Assembly (NCBI GenBank): GCA_015485495.1
Contig: WFTL01000172.1
Span: 1-64,000, forward strand
Direction: 5' to 3'
From: Planctomycetaceae bacterium
GTDB taxonomy: Bacteria; Planctomycetota; Planctomycetia; Planctomycetales; Planctomycetaceae
DNA length: 64,000 bases
The translations under genes were made by a program, and so were the position numbers. The stretch's first letter is position 1. Every line of letters starts with the position of its first letter. Positions 2,484 to 15,778 of this stretch are shown piece by piece. The notes beneath the pieces are model-generated. The model did no database searches and had not been told where the DNA came from. It worked only from the letters and a program-made list of their open reading frames with translations.

Positions 2484-2498
2484 TGGCACGCAAGTTGC
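2484..2498 (+). promoter_or_regulatory. Sigma-54 (-24/-12) promoter
   Basis: The sequence TGGCACG, four bases, TTGC matches the sigma-54 consensus (TGGCACG-N4-TTGCW) except for the final weak base. The invariant GG (2485-2486) and GC (2497-2498) are exactly ten bases apart. It lies 42 bp after the stop of the sigma-54 activator gene and about 12 bp before an expected start site near 2510, just ahead of hsdR. It also argues against the TTG codon at 2483 as the hsdR start, because that codon would lie inside the promoter. Confidence 0.85.
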
Positions 2499-2536
2499 CT
2501 AAGCCGCAATCCATGCAACGGAATTTGTACCTGACA

Positions 2537-5500
2537 ATGAAATCGATCAACTTCGAGTTTCTGCGACCGAAGTGGCCGGAGCTGGCTGGGCTTGGCGGTT
2601 TTGCCGAGACGTATGCCCATCCCGATCCGGTTGGCTCGATTTCCAAACTGCGGGTGTTCTGCGAGCAGGTGGTCGAATGGATTCATCATCAGCAACGACT
2701 GCCGAAACCATTCCGGGCCAATCTCAACGACCTGCTCAACAACCAGCCGTTCAAGGACGTTGTTCCTGAAGTCATTCTTTCCAAACTCCATGCTCTTCGC
2801 ATGGAAGGCAACAACGCCGCTCACGGCAATCGGGGCGATACGACGACAGCTCTGAGGTTGGTTCGCGAAGCCTACAACATTGGTCGCTGGCTGCATGTGA
2901 ACTTCGCGGGCGGAACCGCAGCGGATTGTCCGGAATATGTCGAACCGCCAGAGGGTGGCGTCGAAGGATTCAAGCAGCGACGAGAAAAGCGAGCCATTCT
3001 GGAGCGGGTCGCGGCTCAGGAATCGCAGCTTCAGAAACTCCTTACCGATCTTGAACAGGAACGCTGGCGAGCCGATCAGGCTGAAGCAACGGCTGAGGAA
3101 CGTCAGGCGGCACTCGAAGCCGCCATGCAGGCGACGCATCAGTTGCAATCCGTTGACCCGCTGGCGTTCAACGAGGAAGAAACTCGCAACTATCTGATCG
3201 ACCAGATGCTCGCCGACGAAGGCTGGGATGTCGGCAAGGGGCTGACCGACACGGATGAGGTCAAGAAGGAATACGAACTCAGCGGCCAGCCAACCGAAAC
3301 CGGCGAGGGCCGAGCCGACTACGTCCTGATGGATGACAACGGCAAGCCGCTGGCCGTGCTGGAAGCCAAACGCACCAGCAAGAACGCCACCGAAGGCCGT
3401 AAGCAGGCCGAGCTATATGCCGACGCGTTGGAAGCGGAACACGGTCAGCGTCCGGTCATCTTCTACACGAACGGCTATGACCTGTGGATCTGGAACGATC
3501 ATCCTTCAGCCGGTGAGCCGCCCCGGAAGATCTACGGCTTCTATTCCAAGGACAGCCTGCAGCACATGCACTTCCAGCGGACGGCCAGGAAGCCGGTCAG
3601 CGAAGTGGCCGGCAATCCGAAGATCGCGGGCTGGATGTTTCAACTGGAGGCCGTTCGCCGCGTCGTGGAACAGTTCGCGGAAAAGAAACGCAAGGCATTG
3701 ATCGTTCAGGCCACCGGCACGGGCAAGACGCGTGTCGCAATATCCCTGTGCGATGCCATGATCAAAGCCAATTGGGCCAAACGGATTCTGTTCCTGTGTG
3801 ATCGTCGAGAACTGCGGCGGCAGGCCAACAACGCCTTCAACGAGTTTCTTCCCTCGCTGCCGCGTACTTATGTGACCGGAGCCTCGGCGGGAAACACCAA
3901 GGACCGCATCTTCCTCTCGACCTATCCGGCCATGATGAAGGTCTACGAGTCTTTCGATGTCGGTTTCTTCGACCTGATCATTGCCGATGAGTCACACCGC
4001 AGCCTCTACAACCGGTATCGGCAACTGTTTGAATACTTCGACTGCTACCAGCTTGGACTGACCGCCACGCCGGTTGATTTCGTTGCCCGCAACACCTTCC
4101 GCATCTTCGAATGCGACGAAGGCGACCCCACCTCTCATTACGACTACGCCACGGCGGTCGATCAGGGCTATCTGGTTCCCTTCGAGGTCGATACGCACAC
4201 GACCCCGTTCCTGCGAACGGGCATCAAGTATTCCAGGATGACCGAGGAGCAACGGCGGCAACTGGAAGAAGACGAAGTGCTGCCGCAGGACATCGAGTTT
4301 GAGCAGGGTGCGGTAGACAAGATCATCTACAACAAGGACACGAACAGAATCATCCTGCGAAATCTGATGGACAACGGCATTCGCGTGGGCAGTCGGCTGG
4401 GCAAGACCATCATCTTCGCCCGCAGCATGAAGCACGCCCGGCTGATGGAAGAGCTGTTCAATGAGATGTATCCACAGTACGGCGGCAAGTTCTGTCAGAC
4501 CATCGTCAGCGATGATCCACGGGCCGAGTCATTGATTGATGACTTCAAAGGCAACGGCACCAACTCCGATCTGACCATTGCAATCTCGGTGGACATGCTT
4601 GACACGGGCGTTGATGTGCCGGAGTGCGTCAATCTGGTGTTCGCCAAGCCGGTTTATTCCTACGTGAAGTTCTGGCAGATGATTGGTCGCGGCACGCGGC
4701 TGTGCCCAAACCTGTTCGGTGACGGACTCGACAAAACGCATTTCCAGATCTTCGATCATTGGGGCAACTTCGAGCTGTTCGAGCAGGACTACAAACCGGC
4801 AGAACCAACACGCCAGAAATCGTTGTGTGAACGAGTCTTTGAAGCTCGAATGCAACTGGCCGAAGTGGCCTTGGAGAAGCAGAACAATCCGGCGTTTGAA
4901 TTGGCGACAGGCCTGATCAGCAAACAGATTGCCGACCTGCCGACCGGCAGCATTCCGATCAAAGAGAAGTGGAATCAGGTGTTGTCGGTTTCGTCGGAAG
5001 AAACCGTCCGCCAGTTCGATGCGGCCACCAAAGCCACGTTGCAGCAGGATATCGCTCCGCTGATGCAGTGGGTCGATATCGCCAAGTTCGAGGACGCCTA
5101 CAAGTTCGACCGGCTGATCGCTCAACTTCAGGCCGAACTGATTCGCGGCGGCGGCAGGTTCGCCGACCTGCGTGACGAAGTCCGCAACTGGATCGGCAGT
5201 CTGCAGATCAATCTGTCTCAGGTGAGGGTCAAGCTGCCGGTCATCGAACGCGTCAAGAGCGACGAGTTTTGGGATGAAGTCACGGTTGGCTCGCTGGAAG
5301 AGATTCGTGACCAGTTGCGTGGAGTCGTTCAATTCCGCCGCAAAGGTGAAGTGACCAAACGCGATCCCATCGTCATCGACGTGAAGGAAGACGAATCTCA
5401 GATCGAACACAACCGGCACAAAGTCCGCTTGGACAGACTCGACGATCTGGACATGCGGGCTTACCGGAACCGGGTCAACAACGCTCTGCAGGCCATCATC

Positions 5501-5941
5501 GACCAGAACGAAACACTGCGAAAGATTCGACTCGGCCAGCCTGTGACCGACACCGATCTGGAAGACCTGTGCTCACTGGTACTGACTCAGGAGCCGGGCC
5601 TCGATCTGCACGACCTGATGGATTACTTCCAGCAGGCCGAATCGCTGGATCAGGCGATCCGCGAAATCATCGGGATGGATGGCGAGGCCGTTCGCGAACG
5701 GTTTACCGAGTTCGTGCAGGCCCATCCCAATCTGGCTTCGCACCAGATCAAGTTTCTGGACCTGCTGCAAAATCACATCGCCAAATACGGCTCGATCCAG
5801 ACCGACGACCTCTATGAGCCGCCGTTTACCACGCTGCACACCGACAGCCTGGATGGCCTGTTCGATCCGGCACTGGCCAACGAACTGTTTGACATCATCG
5901 GCACATTCCAGCCGCAAGGAAGTGAGGACAACGAATCATGA
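2537..5941 (+). CDS. hsdR: Type I restriction endonuclease subunit R
   Basis: Motor and nuclease subunit of a type I restriction-modification complex, 1134 aa. The first ~110 residues resemble a DUF4145 domain, followed by a charged coiled coil (about 140-215). The nuclease core of the PD-(D/E)xK type is seen as an RADYVL strand followed by LEAKR near residue 275. The SF2 translocase has Walker A ATGTGKT (about residue 393), ADESH (about 483), LTATP and a late GRGTR motif VI. The ATG at 2537 starts the family-like sequence [10 protein letters not shown] and lies about 27 bp after the predicted sigma-54 start site. ATG 2513 is a possible alternative. The stop overlaps hsdM by four bases (ATGA), so the two are translationally coupled. 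Confidence 0.93.
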
Positions 5942-7536
5942 TTACCGGCCAGCTTCGCAGCAAAATCGACAAACTGTGGGAAGAGTTCTGGACGGGCGGG
6001 ATCACCAACCCGCTGACCGTCATCGAACAGATTTCGTTCCTGATGTTTGCTCGGTTGCTCGACATGCGGGAAAGCACAGAAGAGAAGAAGTGGTCCCGCA
6101 AACACAAGAACAAACCGTTTCCCGGCGTCTACTTCCCTCGCGACAAACAACATCTTCGCTGGAGCCGACTGAAGCAGGAAGCGGACGCCGAGAAAGTGCT
6201 GCGGATCGTTCGTGACGAAGTCTTTCCTCATTTCCGTCAGTTGGGACAGGAAGACGAAACCGAACCGAGCGACGGGCCAGGGAACACCTTCAATCAGTAC
6301 ATGAAGGACGCCACGCTAATGATCAACAAGCCGTCGCTGTTGATCTCGGCCATCAACATGATCGACGCCCTGCCGCTGACTCAGGGCGATACCAAGGGCG
6401 ATCTGTATGAATACCTGCTGAGCAAGTTGACGACGGCGGGCATCAACGGCCAGTTCCGCACGCCGCGACACATTATCGACGTGATGGTCGATCTGGTTCT
6501 GGAAGGCAATGAAGACCAGGCCCTGACGTGGACGGTCGGCGATCCCGCCTGTGGGACTGCCGGATTCCTTGTGCGGTTTATGGAAGGTCTGCGAAAGCGG
6601 CACAGTTCGCCGGACGGCATCCACGTTGATGAAGAAACCGGCGAAAAGACCTACATGGGCGACCTGATCGAGCCGTCGCAGTGGAAGCACATCAAGAGCG
6701 ACATGTTCCACGGCTTCGATTTCGACGTGACGATGCTCCGCATTGCCGCGATGAACATGATGCTGCACGAAATCGACACGCCCGACATCAACTATCAGGA
6801 CACGCTCAGCACCAACTTCACCGAACGCAAGGAAACCTGCCGTTGGGCCGAAGACGCCTTTGACCTGATCCTCGCCAATCCGCCGTTCAAGGGATCGCTG
6901 GACGAAGAGGATGTCCACAAGTCGCTGACCGGCAAAGTCAAAACGAAAAAAACCGAACTGCTGTTTCTGGTCCTGATGCTGCGGATGCTGAAGCTGGGCG
7001 GACGCTGTGCCGTCATTGTCCCGGATGGCGTGACGTTCGGCTCGTCCAAGGCTCACAAGATGCTGCGGAAGATGCTGATCGAAGAGAATCAGTTGGAAGC
7101 CGTCATCAAACTTCCGTCCGGTGTCTTCAAACCCTACGCCGGTGTCAGCACAGCGATCCTGCTCTTCACCAAGGGCGGTCAGACGGAAGATGTGTTCTTC
7201 TTCGACGTACAGGCGGACGGAAAGACGCTGGACGACAAACGGGACAAGATCGGTGCAGCCGACGACTGGCAGGATTTGGACCTGCTACGCGAAGCGTGGC
7301 CGAAATGGAACGGAGGCAACGGCAAGAAGCATTTCAAAGACCGCACGGCCAATGCGTTCTTCGTGCCGAAGTCCGAGTTGGCTGACAACGCCTATGACCT
7401 GTCCATCAATCGGTACAAGGAAATCGTCCACGAAGAAATCGAGTACGACCCGCCCAGGATCATCATCGGGCGTCTCAAGAAGCTCGAAAAAGAGATCGCC
7501 AGGGACTTGAAAGAACTGGAGGCGATGCTCGGATGA
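5938..7536 (+). CDS. hsdM: Type I DNA methyltransferase subunit M
   Basis: N6-adenine methyltransferase subunit, 532 aa, near the usual HsdM length. The SAM-binding motif [10 protein letters not shown] is at 202-210 and the catalytic NPPF motif at 314-317. The N-terminal helical domain ([21 protein letters not shown]) is typical of HsdM. With HsdS it forms the modification enzyme, and with HsdR the restriction complex. It overlaps hsdR by ATGA at its start, and its own stop overlaps the fic start in the same way. The last 23 bases are repeated exactly before hsdS (8793-8815), which suggests hsdM originally led straight into hsdS. Confidence 0.95.
7514..7536 (+). repeat. 23-bp direct repeat, copy 1 (end of hsdM)
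   Basis: The bases from AACTGGAGGCG to CTCGGATGA form the end of hsdM and its stop, overlapping the fic ATG. The same 23 bases occur at 8793-8815, overlapping the hsdS ATG, and the few bases upstream are also similar. The two copies flank fic and a palindromic repeat. Confidence 0.9.
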
Positions 7537-8585
7537 CCCAATTCCAGCCACAATTCACCATCACCAATGCCATCACTCGTGACCTGACCGTCATCGAGCG
7601 GGCACGAGGATTCCTGCAGGCCGCGACTCTGTCCGATCAGTGGATCACGCAAATGAGCCAGCGAGCGTTGTTGCTCGAAGCCCATCACACCACGCACATC
7701 GAAGGCACGCAGTTAACGCTCGAACAATCGAAGCAGCTTCTGGCTGGCAACACTGTCCCCGAGGCGTCCAATGACGATGTTCGCGAGTTGCTGAACTATC
7801 GTGACGCATTTGAGCTCGTCTCCGAATATCTGCTCAGCGGATCGCCTCTGACCGAATCGGTGATTCGCGAGATTCACCGGCGTCTGGTCGATGGTGTGCG
7901 GGGGAATGAAGGACGTCCGGGCGAGTATCGTCAAATTCAGAATATGGTTGCCAACAGCCAAACCGGTGAAGTCATCTACAGACCGCCGCCGTGGGGCGAC
8001 GTTCCCGCATTGATGACGCAATTGGTCGAATGGTTGAATGACGAGTCCGACATTCATCCGGTGCTGGTCGCCGCCGTCGCCCAGTTTCAGTTGGTCCACA
8101 TCCATCCCTTCGTTGACGGCAATGGCCGTACCTCGCGATTGCTTTCGACTCTGTGCCTGTACCGTAGCGGTTACGACTTCAAACGGCTGTTCACGATCAG
8201 CGAATTCTACGACCGCGACCGGCGAGCCTTCTACGACGCAATTCAGGGAGTTCGTGATGCGAGCATGGACCTGACCGGCTGGCTGGAGTTCTTCACCACC
8301 GGCCTGGCCACGCAGATGCAGGAAACGGTCGATCGGGGCACGCGGGTGATCAAGGCGGACGTATTAGCGAAGCAACACAAGTTGAACGAACGGCAATCGG
8401 CTGCGCTCACCTACCTGTTGGAGTTCGAAACGATGAACATCGGCGATTTCGAGCAGCTTTGCCCGGACACCAATCGCCGCAGTCTGCAACGAGATTTGAA
8501 GCGGCTGGCAGATTTGGAACTGATCGAGGACCGAACCGCCAGCGCCACCGACCCCAATCGCCACTACGGCCTGCGGGAGCTGTGA
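7533..8585 (+). CDS. Fic-family AMP-transferase, self-inhibited type, with winged-helix tail
   Basis: Protein of 350 aa. The Fic active-site loop [12 protein letters not shown] is complete at 191-202, so transfer of AMP (or another nucleotide phosphate) to a protein is expected. An N-terminal inhibitory motif of the (S/T)xxxE(G/N) type is visible as TTHIEG at 53-58, which places it with class II Fic proteins that block their own ATP site. The last ~80 residues look like a winged helix that could bind DNA ([19 protein letters not shown]). Fic-like genes are known in some type I restriction loci, usually as accessory genes of unclear role. The ATGA overlap with hsdM gives coupled translation. 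The flanking 23-bp repeats suggest insertion into the hsdM-hsdS junction. The protein target is unknown. Confidence 0.88.
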
Positions 8586-8685
8586 CGGGCTGTGACGCCG
8601 AGCTATGACAAGCTGTGACATCCACCGCTAACCAATGACCAACGAAGAGTTTACGTCGAATGAAGACGCGGACGGAAACAATGAT

Positions 8686-8776
8686 TGAACCGCAGAGAAC
8701 GCAGAGTTTCGCGGAGGAAGAACGATCGCAAACGCAGCCCAAACCTCTGCGTACCTCCGCAACCTCTGCGGTTGAA
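8686..8776. repeat. Nested palindromic repeat (REP/MITE-like)
   Basis: Three pairs of inverted arms lie in nested order: AACCGCAGAG (8688-8697) with CTCTGCGGTT (8764-8773), ACGCAGAG (8699-8706) with CTCTGCGT (8745-8752), and GCGGAGG (8711-8717) with CCTCCGC (8754-8760). The whole could fold into a long branched hairpin. Similar 'accgcagag...ctctgcggt' palindromes are scattered in many environmental bacterial genomes. It fills most of the 226-bp gap between fic and hsdS, the only large gap in the operon, and could reduce or terminate read-through or carry an internal promoter. Confidence 0.75.
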
Positions 8777-8792
8777 CATGCGCCTTCAAGAA

Positions 8793-8815
8793 AACTGGAG
8801 GCGATGCTCGGATGA
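8793..8815 (+). repeat. 23-bp direct repeat, copy 2 (before hsdS)
   Basis: Exact copy of the hsdM end at 7514-7536. In the hsdM frame it still encodes the same C-terminal residues and stop (LEAMLG), although no gene is translated there. It supplies a GGAG ribosome binding site and the ATGA in which hsdS starts. It is best read as a duplicated hsdM-hsdS junction. Confidence 0.9.
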
Positions 8816-10002
8816 AATTGCAGTTCACTGAACGACCACTGGGCGAACTCATCGAGGTCGCGTCAGGCCAAGTCGATCCGCGTGACGAACCATATTCCTC
8901 GATGCCGCACGTTGGCGGTGAGAACATCGAGCCGCATACGGGGCGAATTAGTGGCACACAGACCGCAGCGGAATTAGGTCTGAAGAGTGGAAAATACGTG
9001 TTTGATGACAGTCACGTTCTTTATTCCAAGATTCGTCCGAATCTCAACAAGGTCGCCACACCTGACTTCGAGGGAATTTGCAGTGCCGACATCTATCCGA
9101 TCCGTCCGGTCAACGGTGAGATCGACAAACGCTTTCTGGTCTACGTGCTCCGGTCAAAGCACTTCCTTGCCTATGCTGCGAAGCATTCGACACGCACCAA
9201 CATTCCAAAGCTGAACCGTCCGACACTCCTCGCTTACAGTTTTCCGCTACCTCCGCTTGCAGAGCAGAAGCGAATCGCCGACATCCTCGACAAAGCCGAC
9301 GCCATCCGCCGCAAACGGCAAAACGCTTCGACTCAACGCGAGGCGTTGATCCCGTCTATCTTCATTGAGTTGTTTGGCGACCCAGCTCTTAATCCGCACA
9401 ACTATCGACGCGTCGTACTTTCAGCGTTAGCGGACGGCGATGACGGAATTAAATGCGGTCCTTTTGGAACTCAGTTGTCGAAGGGCGAATACACACATGA
9501 AGGAGTTCCGCTGTGGGGGATTCCGCACGTCAATCGCAAGTTCGACGTGCCAACTAACGAGTTTGTCTCGGAGGAAAAGGCGGAAGACCTAAGCGGTTAT
9601 TCATTGATTGCTGGCGACATTGTCATGACGAGAAAGGGAACGGTCGGCAATTGCTCAGTGTATCCCAGCCACCTACCAGTTGGGGTAATGCATTCTGACC
9701 TATTGCGGATCCGGCTGGATCAATCGCAGTGCCTTCCAGAGTTTGCATCGTGGCAGCTGACCTTGAGTCGCGATGTGGAACATCAGATTCGTCTAGTCAG
9801 TTCTGGAGCCATCATGGCAGGCATCAATGTGACCAAGCTGAAGGGAATTGGGATCTTGGTTCCTCCGTTGCCGCTCCAAGAAGAGTTTGCACATGCAGTG
9901 GAGCAAGTAAAAACGCTGCGTGAAGACCAGCAGAAAGTAGAGGCTGGCGTAGACGCCCTCTTCAACTCCCTCGTCCAACGTGCCTTCAAAGGGGAGTTGT
10001 AG
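8812..10002 (+). CDS. hsdS: Type I restriction specificity subunit S
   Basis: DNA-recognition subunit of 396 aa. Two variable target-recognition domains (about 1-140 and 195-345) are each followed by a conserved helical spacer: LPPLAEQKRIADILDKADAI near 145-165 and LPLQEEFAHAVEQVKTLRED near 348-367. The end, LVQRAFKGEL, is typical of intact HsdS. Each target-recognition domain should read half of a split recognition site, which cannot be deduced here. The start overlaps the repeated hsdM stop. The patatin gene begins three bases after the hsdS stop, so the restriction and CBASS genes are physically joined. Confidence 0.93.
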   Translation: MKLQFTERPLGELIEVASGQVDPRDEPYSSMPHVGGENIEPHTGRISGTQTAAELGLKSGKYVFDDSHVLYSKIRPNLNKVATPDFEGICSADIYPIRPVNGEIDKRFLVYVLRSKHFLAYAAKHSTRTNIPKLNRPTLLAYSFPLPPLAEQKRIADILDKADAIRRKRQNASTQREALIPSIFIELFGDPALNPHNYRRVVLSALADGDDGIKCGPFGTQLSKGEYTHEGVPLWGIPHVNRKFDVPTNEFVSEEKAEDLSGYSLIAGDIVMTRKGTVGNCSVYPSHLPVGVMHSDLLRIRLDQSQCLPEFASWQLTLSRDVEHQIRLVSSGAIMAGINVTKLKGIGILVPPLPLQEEFAHAVEQVKTLREDQQKVEAGVDALFNSLVQRAFKGEL

Positions 10003-10005
10003 TTC

Positions 10006-10947
10006 ATGGATAACCAACGGTTTCAGATACTTTCTCTTGATGGAGGCGGAATCAAAGGCTTGTTTTCAGCGGCGGTGCTTTCGGCCATCGAAGACGATCT
10101 CAACATCAATGTCATCGATCACTTCGATTTGATAACCGGCACATCGACGGGCGGCATCATCGCTCTTGGCCTCAGCATCGGAATGCGTCCGCGAGAAATC
10201 GTTGAGTTCTATCTGTCGAAGGGGCCGCAGATTTTTCCGACCGGATTCCGAGCGAACTGGCGGCACTGGTTCAAGAGGAAATACTCTCAGGAACCACTGA
10301 AAGCAGCCCTTGAGACGTGCTTCAAAGACAAACGCATCGCCGAATGCAAAAAGCGGGTTGTGATCCCGTCCTACAATCTGGGCGAAGACGACGTTTACAT
10401 CTTTCGCACACCGCACGCTGAACGGCTGAAACGGGATTGGAAAGTTCCGCTGTGGAAGGTCGCTCTCTCGACCAGTGCGGCACCGACGTTCTTCCCGTGT
10501 TCTCGGCACGTTGACAGTTTACGACTGATCGACGGTGGCGTGTGGGCCAATAACCCGACAATGGTCGGCGTCGTCGAAGCCTACGGCACGCTGGACGTCC
10601 CCCTCGATGCGATCCACGTTTTCAGCGTTGGCACTTCTGACGCAGTGAACCATCGACAGAAGACACTGGATGGCGGCGGTTTGTTGTCATGGGCGAAAGC
10701 GGCCCCCGACGTAATCATGCGAGGCCAAAGCATCGGCGTTCACAATCAGGCGTCGTTCCTGCTCGGCAGGGATCGCGTTGAACGATGGAACCCGAAGGTC
10801 GCGTCCGATGAATTCTCGCTGGACGGCGTTCACAAGGCCGAAGACCTCGTCGGCAAAGCCGCACACGTCAGCCGGATACTGATGCCCAACTTTCAGGAGA
10901 AGTTCGTAGCTCACACAGCAGCGGAGTACGAACCGCTTTACTCATAG
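10006..10947 (+). CDS. capV: CapV-like patatin phospholipase, CBASS effector
   Basis: Patatin-family lipid acyl hydrolase of 313 aa. It has the oxyanion loop DGGGIKG (12-18), the nucleophile motif GTSTG with Ser47, and the catalytic DGG with Asp176, giving a complete Ser-Asp dyad. In CBASS systems, CapV is activated by cyclic dinucleotides and degrades the inner membrane, killing the infected cell. The pairing with a CD-NTase gene 21 bp downstream supports that role here; without it the gene could be a housekeeping patatin. A GGGGAG ribosome binding site lies within the end of hsdS. No signal peptide is seen, so it is cytosolic until activated. Confidence 0.88.
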   Translation: MDNQRFQILSLDGGGIKGLFSAAVLSAIEDDLNINVIDHFDLITGTSTGGIIALGLSIGMRPREIVEFYLSKGPQIFPTGFRANWRHWFKRKYSQEPLKAALETCFKDKRIAECKKRVVIPSYNLGEDDVYIFRTPHAERLKRDWKVPLWKVALSTSAAPTFFPCSRHVDSLRLIDGGVWANNPTMVGVVEAYGTLDVPLDAIHVFSVGTSDAVNHRQKTLDGGGLLSWAKAAPDVIMRGQSIGVHNQASFLLGRDRVERWNPKVASDEFSLDGVHKAEDLVGKAAHVSRILMPNFQEKFVAHTAAEYEPLYS

Positions 10948-10968: not shown

Positions 10969-12444
10969 ATGCAAATCGTAATGAAGCAGGAACTCAATGA
11001 TCTGCTGCGGGCCATCGCAGACGATCTGGACATCCCCACTCACATGTATGAAGACGCCGTCGTTCGATATTCGGATGTCGGTGAATGGCTGGCTCAGGAA
11101 GACTCCGAACTGGCCAAATACGAACCGGACATCTATCCGCAGGGATCGTTCCGGCTCGGCACGATGGTGAAGCCACTAAACGACGCCGACGAGTATGACA
11201 TTGATCTCGTCTGCCATCTCAAGATTCGCAAAGAACACACGACTCAACAGGAATTGAAGGATCGCGTTGGGAAGAGGCTCGAAGCCCGCGATGACATCAA
11301 GAAGATTCTGAAACCGTCACGCCGCTGCTGGCTGCTCGACTATCCAGAGCAATTCCACATGGACGTGCTTCCGACGATTCCGAACGAAGAACGTCCTCCG
11401 AACGGCATCCTGCTCACGGATACGGAGTTGCGGCTCTGGCAGCATAGCAACCCCATCGACTACGCCGATTGGTTCTTGGAGCAAATGAAGGTTGTGCTTC
11501 GCGAGAAGCGGGCCGCGTATGCCAAACGATACGAGATGAGCATCGAGGAAGTGCCCGAGTACGCGGTGAAGACACCGCTGCAACGGGTCGTGCAGTTGCT
11601 CAAGCGGCACCGTGATGTCCGCTTCCAGAACGATCACGACAATCGCCCCGTGTCGATCATCATCACAACACTGGCCGGACACGCTTACCAGAATCAGGCC
11701 GATCTCTTCGACGCACTGACAGGCGTTGTCAAGAACATGCCGAACTTCATCGAGCGTCGGCAGGATGGAAAGTGGTGGGTTCAAAACCCGGTCGATCCTG
11801 ATGAGAACTTCGCAGACAAGTGGAACGAGTATCCCGAACGCCGCGAAGCATTCTTGTTGTGGCTCGAAAAGGTTCACGACGACTTCGTTTCGGCATCGCA
11901 ATCGGGAACCATGACTAAATCGGCGGGAGTGTTGTCTCCGATCCTTGGGCAAGACGCTGTGTCGCGTGCGGCATCGAGTCTGGGCATCCAGCCGAGTTCG
12001 TTGACGACCAAGACAGCATCCACAGGCGTAGCAGTTCCAGCATTGGCGGACACCAGTCATTGCCAGCCGTTGGCGTTTAGGGAAGCCCTTGTTCCAACTG
12101 CGAGGGTGCGAATCAAGGGCGGCGTCTATCGTCGTGTTCACTCGCGAAAGAAATTGTGGGACTTTTCCAAGCGTCCAGTTCCGAAGGGCATTGGACTAAG
12201 ATTCGTCGCCGAAACTAACGTCCGCAAGCCCTACGAAGTTCGTTGGCAGGTCGTGAATACCGGTGAAGAAGCGAGAGCGGCGGGTGGATTGCGGGGAGGA
12301 TTCGATCCCATGCCTTTTGATTCAGGCAATGTTCGCTGGGAAGAAACAGCCTACGCGGGGACACACTGGATCGAAGCATTCATTATCAAGGACGGCGTGT
12401 GCGTTGCTCGATCAAAACCACTTTACGTTCGCGTTCGTGGGTAA
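10969..12444 (+). CDS. CBASS CD-NTase (cGAS/DncV-like nucleotidyltransferase) with AGS-C-like sensor tail
   Basis: Protein of 491 aa. The nucleotidyltransferase core has the GS motif GSFRLGT (59-65), the metal-binding pair in YDIDLV (Asp77, Asp79) and a third Asp in FHMDVLP (Asp132), so it should be active. Residues ~380-491, ending KDGVCVARSKPLYVRVRG, resemble the adenylyl/guanylyl-cyclase and SMODS C-terminal sensor (AGS-C) domain attached to some bacterial cyclases. The likely product is a cyclic di- or trinucleotide that activates the patatin upstream. AAGGA stands ten bases before ATG 10969. No Cap2 (E1/E2-like) or Cap3 (JAB protease) genes adjoin, so the layout matches a minimal two-gene type I CBASS. 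The C-terminal tail could give the enzyme its own sensory input. Confidence 0.9.
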   Translation: MQIVMKQELNDLLRAIADDLDIPTHMYEDAVVRYSDVGEWLAQEDSELAKYEPDIYPQGSFRLGTMVKPLNDADEYDIDLVCHLKIRKEHTTQQELKDRVGKRLEARDDIKKILKPSRRCWLLDYPEQFHMDVLPTIPNEERPPNGILLTDTELRLWQHSNPIDYADWFLEQMKVVLREKRAAYAKRYEMSIEEVPEYAVKTPLQRVVQLLKRHRDVRFQNDHDNRPVSIIITTLAGHAYQNQADLFDALTGVVKNMPNFIERRQDGKWWVQNPVDPDENFADKWNEYPERREAFLLWLEKVHDDFVSASQSGTMTKSAGVLSPILGQDAVSRAASSLGIQPSSLTTKTASTGVAVPALADTSHCQPLAFREALVPTARVRIKGGVYRRVHSRKKLWDFSKRPVPKGIGLRFVAETNVRKPYEVRWQVVNTGEEARAAGGLRGGFDPMPFDSGNVRWEETAYAGTHWIEAFIIKDGVCVARSKPLYVRVRG

Positions 12445-12455
12445 ATGGGGATGCC

Positions 12456-14111
12456 ATGATCACAGGAATCACGATTCAGAACTTCAAAGGCATCCGTGAT
12501 CGGGTGACGCTGCCGCTTCGTCCGATCACGTTGTTGTTTGGAGCCAACAGTGCAGGCAAGAGCACGATCCTGCACGCATTGCAGTACCTCGGCGAGATTC
12601 TTTCCGACCGCAATATCGATCCGCACAACTTGGGCGGCACGCCGGACGGCATCGACTTGGGAGGGTTCCACAGCTTCGCTCACGGAAAACGAAGTGATGA
12701 GCAGGTCACGCTGGGCGTGTCCTTTCTCCTGTCCGAGGATGGGTTACCGCGATTCTTCACACGCACGCTGCCGGAATTGGATGAACCGGAAACCCTCTAT
12801 ACCTGCCCCGCCGAGGCGACCGTCGAAGTTTCCATCCGCTGGAGCGAAATGCTGGGCCACGCCTACGTCGCTCGTTACGGCGTTGAATTCGACAACGAAT
12901 CGTTCGCCGTCATCGAGTTCGAGCCGGGCACGCTGGTCAGTGAGATGTCCGTCAACGAACAGCATTCCTGCCTGACCAGAGACGTCGAGCATTCATGGTT
13001 TGGCAAGTGGCATCCACTGGAACCTGATCAACTGGCCGAAGACGAAAGCGTGCTGGGCCAGTTGATGAGCTGGGCCAATCACAATTATGCCATCAACGGA
13101 ATCGGCCCCGGTCGTTCGCCGTACACAAACATCCTTGGCGTCATTGACCAGAAGGATGCTCTGCCCCGCTTCACGCGATCCTTGCGGCTGGATGCCGATT
13201 GGGCGTGGAGTGAACGTGATCCGCAACTCCACAACGCTCAACTGCCCGAACTGGCGGATCATCTGACCGAGGTCTTATCGCAGCTTGTCGTGGGTCCGGG
13301 CCAGTTGGTCCGCAACCTGCTGCTGAATTCCCGTTTCCTTGGCCCGATCCGCGAAATTCCAGCCCGCACTCGCATCCCCTTGCGGGAAAAGGCCCGGTCG
13401 AATTGGGCCACGGGACTGACGGCATGGGAACGTCTGGAATCCGGCACTGAGCAGCTTGTCTCGGAAGTCAACGACTGGCTGTCGAACACGGAACGGCTGA
13501 ATTCCGGCTTCGAGATCACGATCAAAAACTTCAAGGAACTGGACCTCAGCGATCCTCTGATGATCAAACTGCTGACGGGCCGGGCGTTTGATGAAGCCGA
13601 AGACGACGCCCGGCTGGACATCGAAAACCTGCCCACACGCACGCGGCTGATCGTTGTTCCGGTCAACGGGCCGACCGATAAACCGGTTGAATTGACACCC
13701 AGCGATGTCGGCATCGGCGTCTCGCAGGTCGTGCCTGTGATCGTGGCGGCCTTGGACGGCGAAGGCTGGCTGGTGTCCATCGAACAGCCGGAGCTTCACG
13801 TCCATCCCAAACTGCAGGCCGAGATTGCCGACCTGTTTGTGGAAGCCACCCACGTGAACCGGCATCAGTTCATCATCGAAACGCATAGCGAACACTTCAT
13901 CCTGCGGCTGCTGCGTCGAATTCGTGAAACGGAAAAAGGAACCGCCGACGCCAACCGCCAACTGCGTACCGACGATCTGGCCGTGAACTACATCCGCATG
14001 GAAGACGGCTGCTCGGAAGTGACGCAGATCGACATCGACGTGAAAGGAGAGTTCATCCAACCGTGGCCTGATGACTTCTTCGAGATTGATTTCTACGAGA
14101 GGTTCCATTGA
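12456..14111 (+). CDS. RecF/OLD-like AAA ATPase (DUF3696 type)
   Basis: ATPase of 551 aa in the SMC/RecF-like class. It begins MITGITIQNFKGI, with Walker A GANSAGKST at 29-37, a signature-like SDVGIGVSQVVPV segment, Walker B with EQPELHVHP from about residue 443, and an H-loop THSEHF. The C-terminal part with PWPDDFF resembles DUF3696. Such ATPases are the sensor halves of several two-gene phage defence systems, each with a different effector. No TOPRIM nuclease domain follows the ATPase, so this is not OLD/GajA itself. It starts 11 bp after the CD-NTase stop and its own stop overlaps the next start by one base, so the next protein is its likely partner. Confidence 0.8.
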   Translation: MITGITIQNFKGIRDRVTLPLRPITLLFGANSAGKSTILHALQYLGEILSDRNIDPHNLGGTPDGIDLGGFHSFAHGKRSDEQVTLGVSFLLSEDGLPRFFTRTLPELDEPETLYTCPAEATVEVSIRWSEMLGHAYVARYGVEFDNESFAVIEFEPGTLVSEMSVNEQHSCLTRDVEHSWFGKWHPLEPDQLAEDESVLGQLMSWANHNYAINGIGPGRSPYTNILGVIDQKDALPRFTRSLRLDADWAWSERDPQLHNAQLPELADHLTEVLSQLVVGPGQLVRNLLLNSRFLGPIREIPARTRIPLREKARSNWATGLTAWERLESGTEQLVSEVNDWLSNTERLNSGFEITIKNFKELDLSDPLMIKLLTGRAFDEAEDDARLDIENLPTRTRLIVVPVNGPTDKPVELTPSDVGIGVSQVVPVIVAALDGEGWLVSIEQPELHVHPKLQAEIADLFVEATHVNRHQFIIETHSEHFILRLLRRIRETEKGTADANRQLRTDDLAVNYIRMEDGCSEVTQIDIDVKGEFIQPWPDDFFEIDFYERFH

Positions 14112-15118
14112 TGCTCACGGAATTTGCTTTCACACCTTCGATCTTCGACGAGGACGCTCACGAAGATAAGGACGCTTGGAAAGACCAGCTCAGAGAACTG
14201 GTGTCTTCCATGTTCCCGCGAACGTCGGCCTGGCCGGTGATTGTGTCCGATCTCTACGCGGGTAGCTGGTCTTCGCATGTGGTGCCGCACGTTGATCGGA
14301 TTCAGGACCATCGTGCCAGGAAGTATTGTCAAGACCTGCTGACCAACATGCAGCGGATGCTGGTCGTGCGTCCGGATATTGGTGAGTGGCCTTATGAGGA
14401 CGACGTAGCATGGTGCCGCGAAGCCGTCGCGACCAACGAGATTGAACCCATCGACCGTATCGTTTCTGTGAAGGCGACCAAGGATGCAATGGCGGCCGAG
14501 TTCGCGTTGATTCGATCCATCGACGAAGTGAAAGACTCAGGTTTCTGGCGAGGCATCGAGTCAGGCGCATCACCACGCATGGTGATCGCTGAACAGGTTG
14601 ACCTGCTCCGCAAACTCTGCCTGCATTCCGAATGGGTGGCGTTGATCGACCCGTATGGCTTCACCAGCGAGCAGAATTTTTCACTGAAGCTGCTGGAAAT
14701 CGTTTTGAACCGACATGCCAGTTTCGGCCCGATCCATTTCGAGTTGCACGCACAAGGCCCTGACGTAACCGATCCCGTCGAAAGGCAGGAACGACAGCAG
14801 AGTGTGGCCAACTACATGGCCAGCCAGATTCAACCGAAGCTGACGGGATCGAGTTCTGTGGAGCTTTACTTCTGGCCGTCGTTGAGGGAACGCATTCTTG
14901 TGGCTGGCAACTATTTCCAGCAGTCTGGCGGTCAGAAGCGGAAGAGTCCACGATGGGGTGTTGGAATCCAGCACGTCGCCCACGGTTCTGACGGTGAATC
15001 GGACGACACGGAATGGAAGCTGTTGCGTCGCAACAGCCTTGATACATGGTTCCGCCGAATTGCAGCAGAAAACGCGACTGGTAAGCCAACACCGACAGTT
15101 ATCAATCCAGCCACCTGA
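14111..15118 (+). CDS. Unrecognised partner of the AAA ATPase, possible effector
   Basis: Soluble protein of 335 aa with no signal peptide or membrane segment and no family I can name with confidence. It is acidic at the N-terminus and contains a central DPYGFTSEQNF segment. A later stretch, LRERILVAGNYF, followed about 12 residues later by WGVGIQHV, has the rhythm of the 'HDRyl...G.G' end of phospholipase D-like (MIT C-terminal-like) modules, but the canonical His is replaced. It overlaps the ATPase stop by one base, the classic layout of ATPase/effector defence pairs. Function is inferred only from this context. Confidence 0.6.
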   Translation: MLTEFAFTPSIFDEDAHEDKDAWKDQLRELVSSMFPRTSAWPVIVSDLYAGSWSSHVVPHVDRIQDHRARKYCQDLLTNMQRMLVVRPDIGEWPYEDDVAWCREAVATNEIEPIDRIVSVKATKDAMAAEFALIRSIDEVKDSGFWRGIESGASPRMVIAEQVDLLRKLCLHSEWVALIDPYGFTSEQNFSLKLLEIVLNRHASFGPIHFELHAQGPDVTDPVERQERQQSVANYMASQIQPKLTGSSSVELYFWPSLRERILVAGNYFQQSGGQKRKSPRWGVGIQHVAHGSDGESDDTEWKLLRRNSLDTWFRRIAAENATGKPTPTVINPAT

Positions 15119-15124
15119 CTGGAA

Positions 15125-15715
15125 CTAATACAAGACGGAGTGATTAACGATCATGTCTGAATCGGCATTCAATCCGGGCCAACTGGTTCGGCTGAAGTCG
15201 CAGCCTGATGCCTGCGGGGCGGTTCCCTCGAGTTCCGTTTGACTGAGGACCGTTTCGTGTTTTCCGGGCCGAGGCTCCTCCAAATCAGCGATCGGGTTCA
15301 CTTCGATGTAACCCTGCCGTTTCGCCCAGCGAACGGCGCTTTTGATTGAGCGGCAATAGTTCCGGTGCGACCCCCTGGAAAGCTCGGTCATCGAGTCCAG
15401 CCACTGCTGTACGTGAAACGGCCTGAGCTCGTGCGTGCGCAAGTCCGGGTAGGTCCGAACGAAACGCTCCAGGCGATAGCGGTACCACTCGTAGGTATCC
15501 GGCGCTCTGTGCTTTTGGCACCAGTCGAGGAACAGGTCGATCACGACGGCCAGCGAATCGGAGCGAACGATTCGCTTTTGTGGTTCGGCCATCAACTGAT
15601 GGAAGCGAGTCAGCGCATCCTCTGTGGATTTGGCCAAGAAGTGACGGGTTCCATCGATCGTGACGCACCACGCTTTGCGGCGCTTCCGGTACCAGGGTTT
15701 GGGGGGACGAGCCAT
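15125..15715 (-). pseudogene. 3'-truncated tyrosine integrase
   Basis: Minus-strand frame starting ATG 15715 (GGAGG seven bases upstream) with a family-like N-terminus (MARPPKPWYRKRRKAW), an arm-binding region and a SAM-like core-binding domain (about 50-130). Integrase-like sequence continues to about residue 161 (HETVLSQTE) and then changes to unrelated residues until a stop. The entire catalytic domain with the R...HxxR...Y residues is missing. The break, near 15225-15236, coincides with the end of the helicase-like stub on the other strand, so one deletion or rearrangement removed the ends of both genes. It lies beside tRNA-Arg, a usual attachment site for such integrases. It cannot be active. 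Confidence 0.85.
15153..15242 (+). pseudogene. 5' stub of a helicase-like defence gene
   Basis: ATG at 15153 with GGAG upstream opens a frame reading MSESAFNPGQLVRLKSQPDA and then CGAV before drifting into bases shared with the truncated integrase and a stop at 15240. The phrase 'PGQLVRLKSxP' is typical of the N-terminal barrel at the start of large SNF2/DEAD helicases found in defence islands. About 25 codons survive. It follows the operon in the same direction, so the island once continued beyond this point. Family assignment rests on one short motif. Confidence 0.5.
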
Positions 15716-15778
15716 AGCAAAACCTCCAAGCTTGGGGTGATGAAAAACCACTCCCAGCAAGCCTGAAGGTTTGCTGCT

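Follow-up and report, generated by a model that had tools for sequence, protein, structure and literature searches.

We describe a bacterial defence operon that is very probably gated by a signal: a sigma-54 activator encoded immediately upstream would switch on type I restriction-modification (R-M), CBASS and further genes. The operon lies in a 64-kb stretch of DNA, referred to below as the window. How restriction and abortive defence genes stay off and are then switched on is poorly known. Comparative sequence analysis provides four elements of this arrangement, namely the predicted promoter, two candidate binding-site arrays, the order of the genes and the domains of the activator. The comparison was based on 80 loci encoding CARF-domain relatives, gathered from many phyla; 67 of them, in which the activator frame was long and the DNA downstream of it sufficient, were used.

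In the mechanism that we propose, a weak housekeeping promoter would supply small amounts of a CARF-AAA+-HTH activator, and the level of this protein would probably be limited by its binding to its own operator at 810-844. The activator would also occupy tandem dyads at 2072-2105 inside its own gene, which would act as an enhancer. When infection or damage gives rise to a nucleotide or RNA signal that the CARF domain recognises, the AAA+ ring would contact the sigma-54 RNA polymerase waiting at 2484-2498, and the promoter would open. The transcript would start at about 2509-2513 and would cover a nearly leaderless hsdR, followed by hsdM, fic, hsdS, the CBASS phospholipase and cyclase, and an ATPase pair. 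We infer that these genes form a single transcript, that infection supplies the signal and that expression is close to nil in its absence. An earlier note on this DNA had described a restriction system behind such a promoter as silent until triggered, which may hold for these genes.

The genes behind the promoter all lie on the + strand, in the order hsdR-hsdM-fic-hsdS-capV-CD-NTase-AAA-unknown. They begin with the type I restriction subunit gene hsdR (2513-5941; PADLOC REase_I, 5e-275; ResIII and EcoEI_R_C), the type I methyltransferase gene hsdM (5938-7536; PADLOC MTase_I, 1.4e-168), a gene for a SoFic-like Fic/DOC protein (7533-8585; PF02661, 4.4e-22; SoFic, 3.4e-66) and the specificity subunit gene hsdS (8812-10002; PF01420, 4.4e-21; Specificity_I, 5e-100). 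HsdR, HsdM and HsdS are encoded together and, judged by gene content, would form a type I R-M system. The fic gene, which lies between hsdM and hsdS, is also present in a close relative (locus L097). Within the 226-nt gap before hsdS (8586-8811) are the arms of a long and imperfect inverted repeat, AACCGCAGAG...CTCTGCGGTT; the pattern of its left arm occurs once in the genome.

The next two genes encode a patatin-like phospholipase, the CBASS effector CapV (10006-10947; NF041079, 272.6 bits for a cut-off of 200; PADLOC, 6.5e-105), and a CD-NTase with SMODS and AGS_C domains, the CBASS cyclase (10969-12444; PADLOC cyclase, 1.2e-172; PF18144, PF18134). A CD-NTase with an adjacent effector, the gene pair by which CBASS is recognised, is present here. 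Against the cGAMP synthase equivalog NF041078 the CD-NTase scored 84.3 bits, below the cut-off of 150. The order hsdR-hsdM-hsdS-capV-cyclase recurs at locus L086. The run ends with an AAA_15/OLD-like ATPase (12456-14111; PF13175, 1.2e-23), homologs of which are elsewhere the first gene after the activator, and with a protein of unassigned family (14108-15118) that accompanies the ATPase in other loci and gave no match in Pfam, PADLOC or NCBIfam. In those other loci the two (12456-15118 here) are the first genes behind CARF activators, and they are possibly a separate two-gene defence module.

Overlaps of 4 nt join hsdR to hsdM, hsdM to fic and the last two genes to each other, and a terminator scan gave no excess. 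The earlier note had spoken of a restriction operon; type I R-M genes do follow the promoter, but this name is too narrow for a cargo that extends to the CBASS pair and two more genes. An N-terminal fragment of an integrase gene (15125-15760, - strand) lies directly after the operon, and genes of a phosphate-type ABC transporter start near 20.3 kb. In view of these two neighbours, the defence genes may form an island that was inserted here.

Sigma-54 gating of the complete R-M operon would raise the question of what protects the host genome at switch-on. It is conceivable, though we would rather doubt it, that the sigma-54 promoter is real but serves only as a booster, hsdM and hsdS being expressed constitutively from another promoter; the host would then always be methylated, and only the restriction and abortive modules would be induced. 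This would satisfy the need of self-methylation for a methylase ahead of the nuclease, and it would suit a genome in which hsdM is the sole N6_Mtase match, so that nothing else of this family could pre-methylate the chromosome. The 226-nt gap, which could hold another promoter, is also in its favour for hsdS. For hsdM, on the other hand, the 4-nt overlap with hsdR leaves no intergenic promoter before the gene, and a crude scan that would be expected to give 4.7 matches in shuffled sequence found no sigma-70-like match inside the operon. An extra type I methylase protecting the host was considered and rejected, no further N6_Mtase being encoded in the genome. We regard as unlikely a further scheme in which R-M, including the methylase, is normally off and serves as an inducible self-destruct: on signal it would turn, alongside the CBASS phospholipase, against the cell's own unmethylated chromosome, and the CARF domain would sense the cyclic nucleotide made by the CD-NTase of this operon, in a positive feedback.

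Transcription would start very close to the hsdR gene. Sigma-54 promoters start transcription about 12 nt after the GC element, and this general geometry predicts a start at 2509-2511 on the + strand, 11-13 nt past the C of the -12 element. The first TTG of the open frame (2483-2485) overlaps the -24 element, and the true start of hsdR had been placed downstream of this codon in the earlier note. This was borne out: the candidates are ATG 2513 and ATG 2537, which are in frame with each other, and homology to other HsdR proteins starts at 2537. In 25/63 loci the first long gene, or a frame leaving the contig, begins with an ATG 11-17 nt past the C of the -12 element, in most cases 14 or 15 nt past it; the same interval contains an ATG in 6/18 of the held-out loci described below. 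At hsdR loci this near-promoter ATG shares its frame with another ATG further on, at which HsdR homology begins, and in some relatives the second ATG is preceded by a sequence resembling a ribosome-binding site. As an in-frame ATG is often found 14-15 nt past the -12 element, the hsdR mRNA may be nearly leaderless, with a leader of 0-4 nt for a start near 2509-2513.

The activator gene (847-2442, + strand) was assigned by PADLOC, Pfam and a predicted structure to the CARF-AAA+-HTH sigma-54 activators (bEBP, RtcR_PspF2 class). Its start is ATG 847, ATG 835 being possible. The full-length family profile RtcR_PspF2 of PADLOC matches residues 4-524 (E 1.2e-156), and the AAA+ and Fis-type HTH domains are found as PF00158 (2.5e-60) and HTH_8 (9e-7). 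In the predicted structure of the N-domain (pLDDT 86.6) the N terminus of the protein has a CARF fold. The leading Foldseek matches of this model were Card1, SSO1393, Csm6 and Can2, with E-values from 8e-6, and the matches were mostly CARF proteins, including ring nucleases, at modest TM-scores of about 0.5. The loop that contacts sigma-54 reads GSFTGS as compared with GAFTGA, so F and T are kept and the last A is changed. Among the related activators the loop is GAFSGA at locus L081 and GAFTDA at loci L093, L121, L132, L144 and L147. The genome encodes Cas10.

A promoter scan located a sequence at 787-814 on the + strand, TTCCCA-16 nt-TACAAT, that may serve the activator gene as a promoter of the sigma-70 type. 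It is the single promoter-like match between 500 and 16500, where 4.7 are expected in shuffles, and is weak when taken alone. A block resembling TACAAT recurs 5' of the activator gene in Planctomycetota relatives.

Two arrays of tandem dyads accompany the activator gene. The unit, defined from the discovery set as ACAAN-N4-NTTGT, is repeated in tandem 20-21 bp apart. In the upstream array (810-844) the dyads ACAATGCGGTTTGT (810-823) and ACAAATGGAGTTAC (831-844) are 21 bp apart, and the array contains a palindrome, TTTGTG-N5-CACAAA (819-835). We consider this array a candidate autoregulatory operator; it overlaps the -10-like TACAAT box of the promoter-like match, which suggests that the activator may regulate its own gene through 810-844. 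The array is unique in the window, where 0.02 are expected, and upstream tandem dyads were found in 45/66 loci against 0.23 expected. Scanning with the full 33-mer gave a second copy of the element 5' of the activator in 22/65 loci (0.5 expected).

The second array, a candidate intragenic enhancer (UAS) at 2072-2105, lies in the 3' part of the activator coding sequence, about 390 nt before the promoter, and consists of ACAAATCGCTTTCT (2072-2085) and GCAAAACGATTTGT (2092-2105), 20 bp apart. This array too is unique in the window (0.00 expected), and intragenic tandem dyads were present in 42/67 loci against 0.07 expected. In Planctomycetota, synonymous codons about 110-119 codons before the activator stop are conserved far above background; a corresponding peak of synonymous conservation was seen in the Desulfobacterota/beta group and a lower one in Myxococcota. 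Out of 432 columns, the top five for codon preference all fall at nt 2080-2103 (z 9.4-15.8, 67 sequences). When each sequence was compared with its own synonymous re-encodings, 50/66 loci scored above 99% of them, a test that is partly circular, the PWM coming from the same loci. With a PWM built only from loci outside the Planctomycetota, 8/26 Planctomycetota loci pass 1%, and for the site in the window 1.45% of the re-encodings score as high, which is modest support. The activator would be expected to bind both arrays, which we treat as candidate sites.

The position of this second element within a coding sequence makes codon effects possible, and it might then act in the activator mRNA, at the level of RNA or of coding, and not as a DNA enhancer. 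We think this very unlikely, since the same tandem dyad with the same spacing of 20-21 bp is also found outside the coding sequence, 5' of the activator, and loci without the intragenic copy tend to be without the promoter too.

The promoter itself (2484-2498, + strand) is TGGCACG-CAAG-TTGC (TGGCACGCAAGTTGC). The motif is present as the earlier note had given it, TGGCACG-N4-TTGC with a spacing of ten bases between GG and GC: GG is at 2485-2486 and GC at 2497-2498, forming a GG-N10-GC core within TGGCAC-N5-TTGC. It is the sole match without mismatch on either strand of the window. Allowing up to two mismatches gives no excess there (30 matches, against 27.1 in shuffles), and across the whole genome of 4.67 Mb the pattern TGGCACGN4TTGCW, with at most one mismatch, has 42 sites as compared with 56 for the reversed control pattern. 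Without its context the motif is not significant genome-wide and is weak proof of a promoter. What raises it above chance is its position, 42 nt past the stop codon of the activator gene and directly before hsdR.

This position is conserved. With a site called at a score of at least 14/16 within -30 to +130 nt of the activator stop codon, 51/67 related loci have one, where random windows from the same loci give 0.5 expected, and the opposite strand of the same interval has a site in 0/67. Many of the sites begin only 1 to 6 nt past the activator stop codon. As a control, other sigma-54 activators were examined, and such a downstream site was found for 1/28. The counts are not independent since the loci share descent; at 60% identity the 67 activators form 17 clusters, 11 of which include loci with the site. 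An alignment block between the activator gene and hsdR that is conserved in seven close relatives coincides with the promoter, and a CATG stands out further down. The arrangement as a whole, from the sensor and its candidate binding sites to the promoter and the operon, recurs across several phyla, among them Planctomycetota, Myxococcota, Desulfobacterota and Pseudomonadota.

Sites were found in 36/41 loci with hsdR downstream and in 9/11 loci where the ATPase gene comes first. Sigma-54 control, which the earlier note had considered unusual for type I restriction genes, is nothing exceptional within this regulator family. Its prediction of a sigma-54 promoter for the operon gains from the adjacent gene for a CARF-type activator, from the position-specific conservation in related loci and from rpoN, which it had proposed to look for and which the genome carries (PF04552, E 2.2e-63). 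A chance origin of the -24/-12 match, as motif-only counts no higher than their controls in window and genome would allow, is scarcely credible for a site that is positionally conserved and adjoins a sigma-54 activator gene. At loci L115, L118, L121, L132, L133, L144 and L147 the -12 element is TTGA or GTGA instead of TTGC. Activators with neither a downstream promoter nor an intragenic array were found at L089, L104, L172, L175, L177, L179, L180, L183 and L187; most activator loci of this kind still have the upstream array, and at L089 the hsd genes are on the opposite strand.

For a further test of the promoter and the arrays, another 398 genomes were drawn from the class, and 33 of these had the activator. 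The held-out set consisted of 25 loci with less than 90% identity to any used before, all from Planctomycetota. The promoter was found in 16/25 of them, the intragenic array in 16/25 and the upstream array in 21/24. If the intragenic array is an enhancer serving this promoter, the two should be jointly present or absent, and this tendency was seen both in the held-out loci at slightly looser cut-offs (17/1/0/7; Fisher 1.7e-5, a value that ignores descent) and in the discovery set (45/9/3/8; Fisher 5e-4), where nine loci have the promoter without a scored intragenic array. Held-out loci with neither the promoter nor the intragenic array retain the upstream array.

Several known systems resemble the one described here. 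In RNA repair by RtcR-rtcBA in E. coli and Salmonella (PMC9650030, PMC7790460) a CARF-AAA+-HTH activator likewise acts on a sigma-54 promoter, and the CARF domain of RtcR represses until ligand is bound. However, rtcR is divergent from rtcBA, whereas the activator and its target are in tandem in the window, and the candidate enhancer lies inside the activator gene. Against the RtcR equivalog the window activator scored 284.8 bits for a cut-off of 650; its neighbours are hsd genes, with no rtcBA adjacent, and the RtcB matches of the genome are on other contigs. The ligand of the CARF domain in the window may be similar to the RtcR signal or different from it. RtcR-like CARF genes also stand at the 5' end of superoperons with CoCoNuT, type I R-M, BREX or Druantia (PMC11090510); no CoCoNuT genes were found in the window operon, the cargo of which is type I R-M, CBASS and the ATPase pair. 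The RptR R-M defence island (PMC12255303) likewise controls type I R-M through operator arrays, but RptR is a repressor, whereas the regulator in the window is a sigma-54 activator. In Xylella fastidiosa a sigma-54 site was predicted in silico 28 nt from the type I R-M operon XF2724-21 (PMC3224663). In the site listing of that paper it is a single prediction and a poorer match, given without activator or conservation.

The closest precedent is the work of Makarova et al. (2014; PMC4012209). Its passages on CARF-NtrC proteins state that members without a link to rtc often accompany R-M systems, and predict that such regulators activate downstream genes through sigma-54. The window activator belongs to the same protein class (PADLOC RtcR_PspF2) and has the same neighbourhood. 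Promoter, operator and enhancer are not named in those passages; here they have been located as candidates and tested for conservation, and the operon additionally carries CBASS genes as compared with the systems described there. We found no published report of such a promoter, operator and enhancer anatomy, or of CBASS cargo, for regulators of this kind. The association of CARF-NtrC proteins with R-M has thus been known since 2014, and what is added is the activator at this locus, candidates for its operator and its enhancer, and a cargo that is larger. With a map at base resolution of the operon, its promoter, the sensor and the sites that the sensor may bind, the 2014 prediction for CARF-NtrC regulators becomes directly testable.
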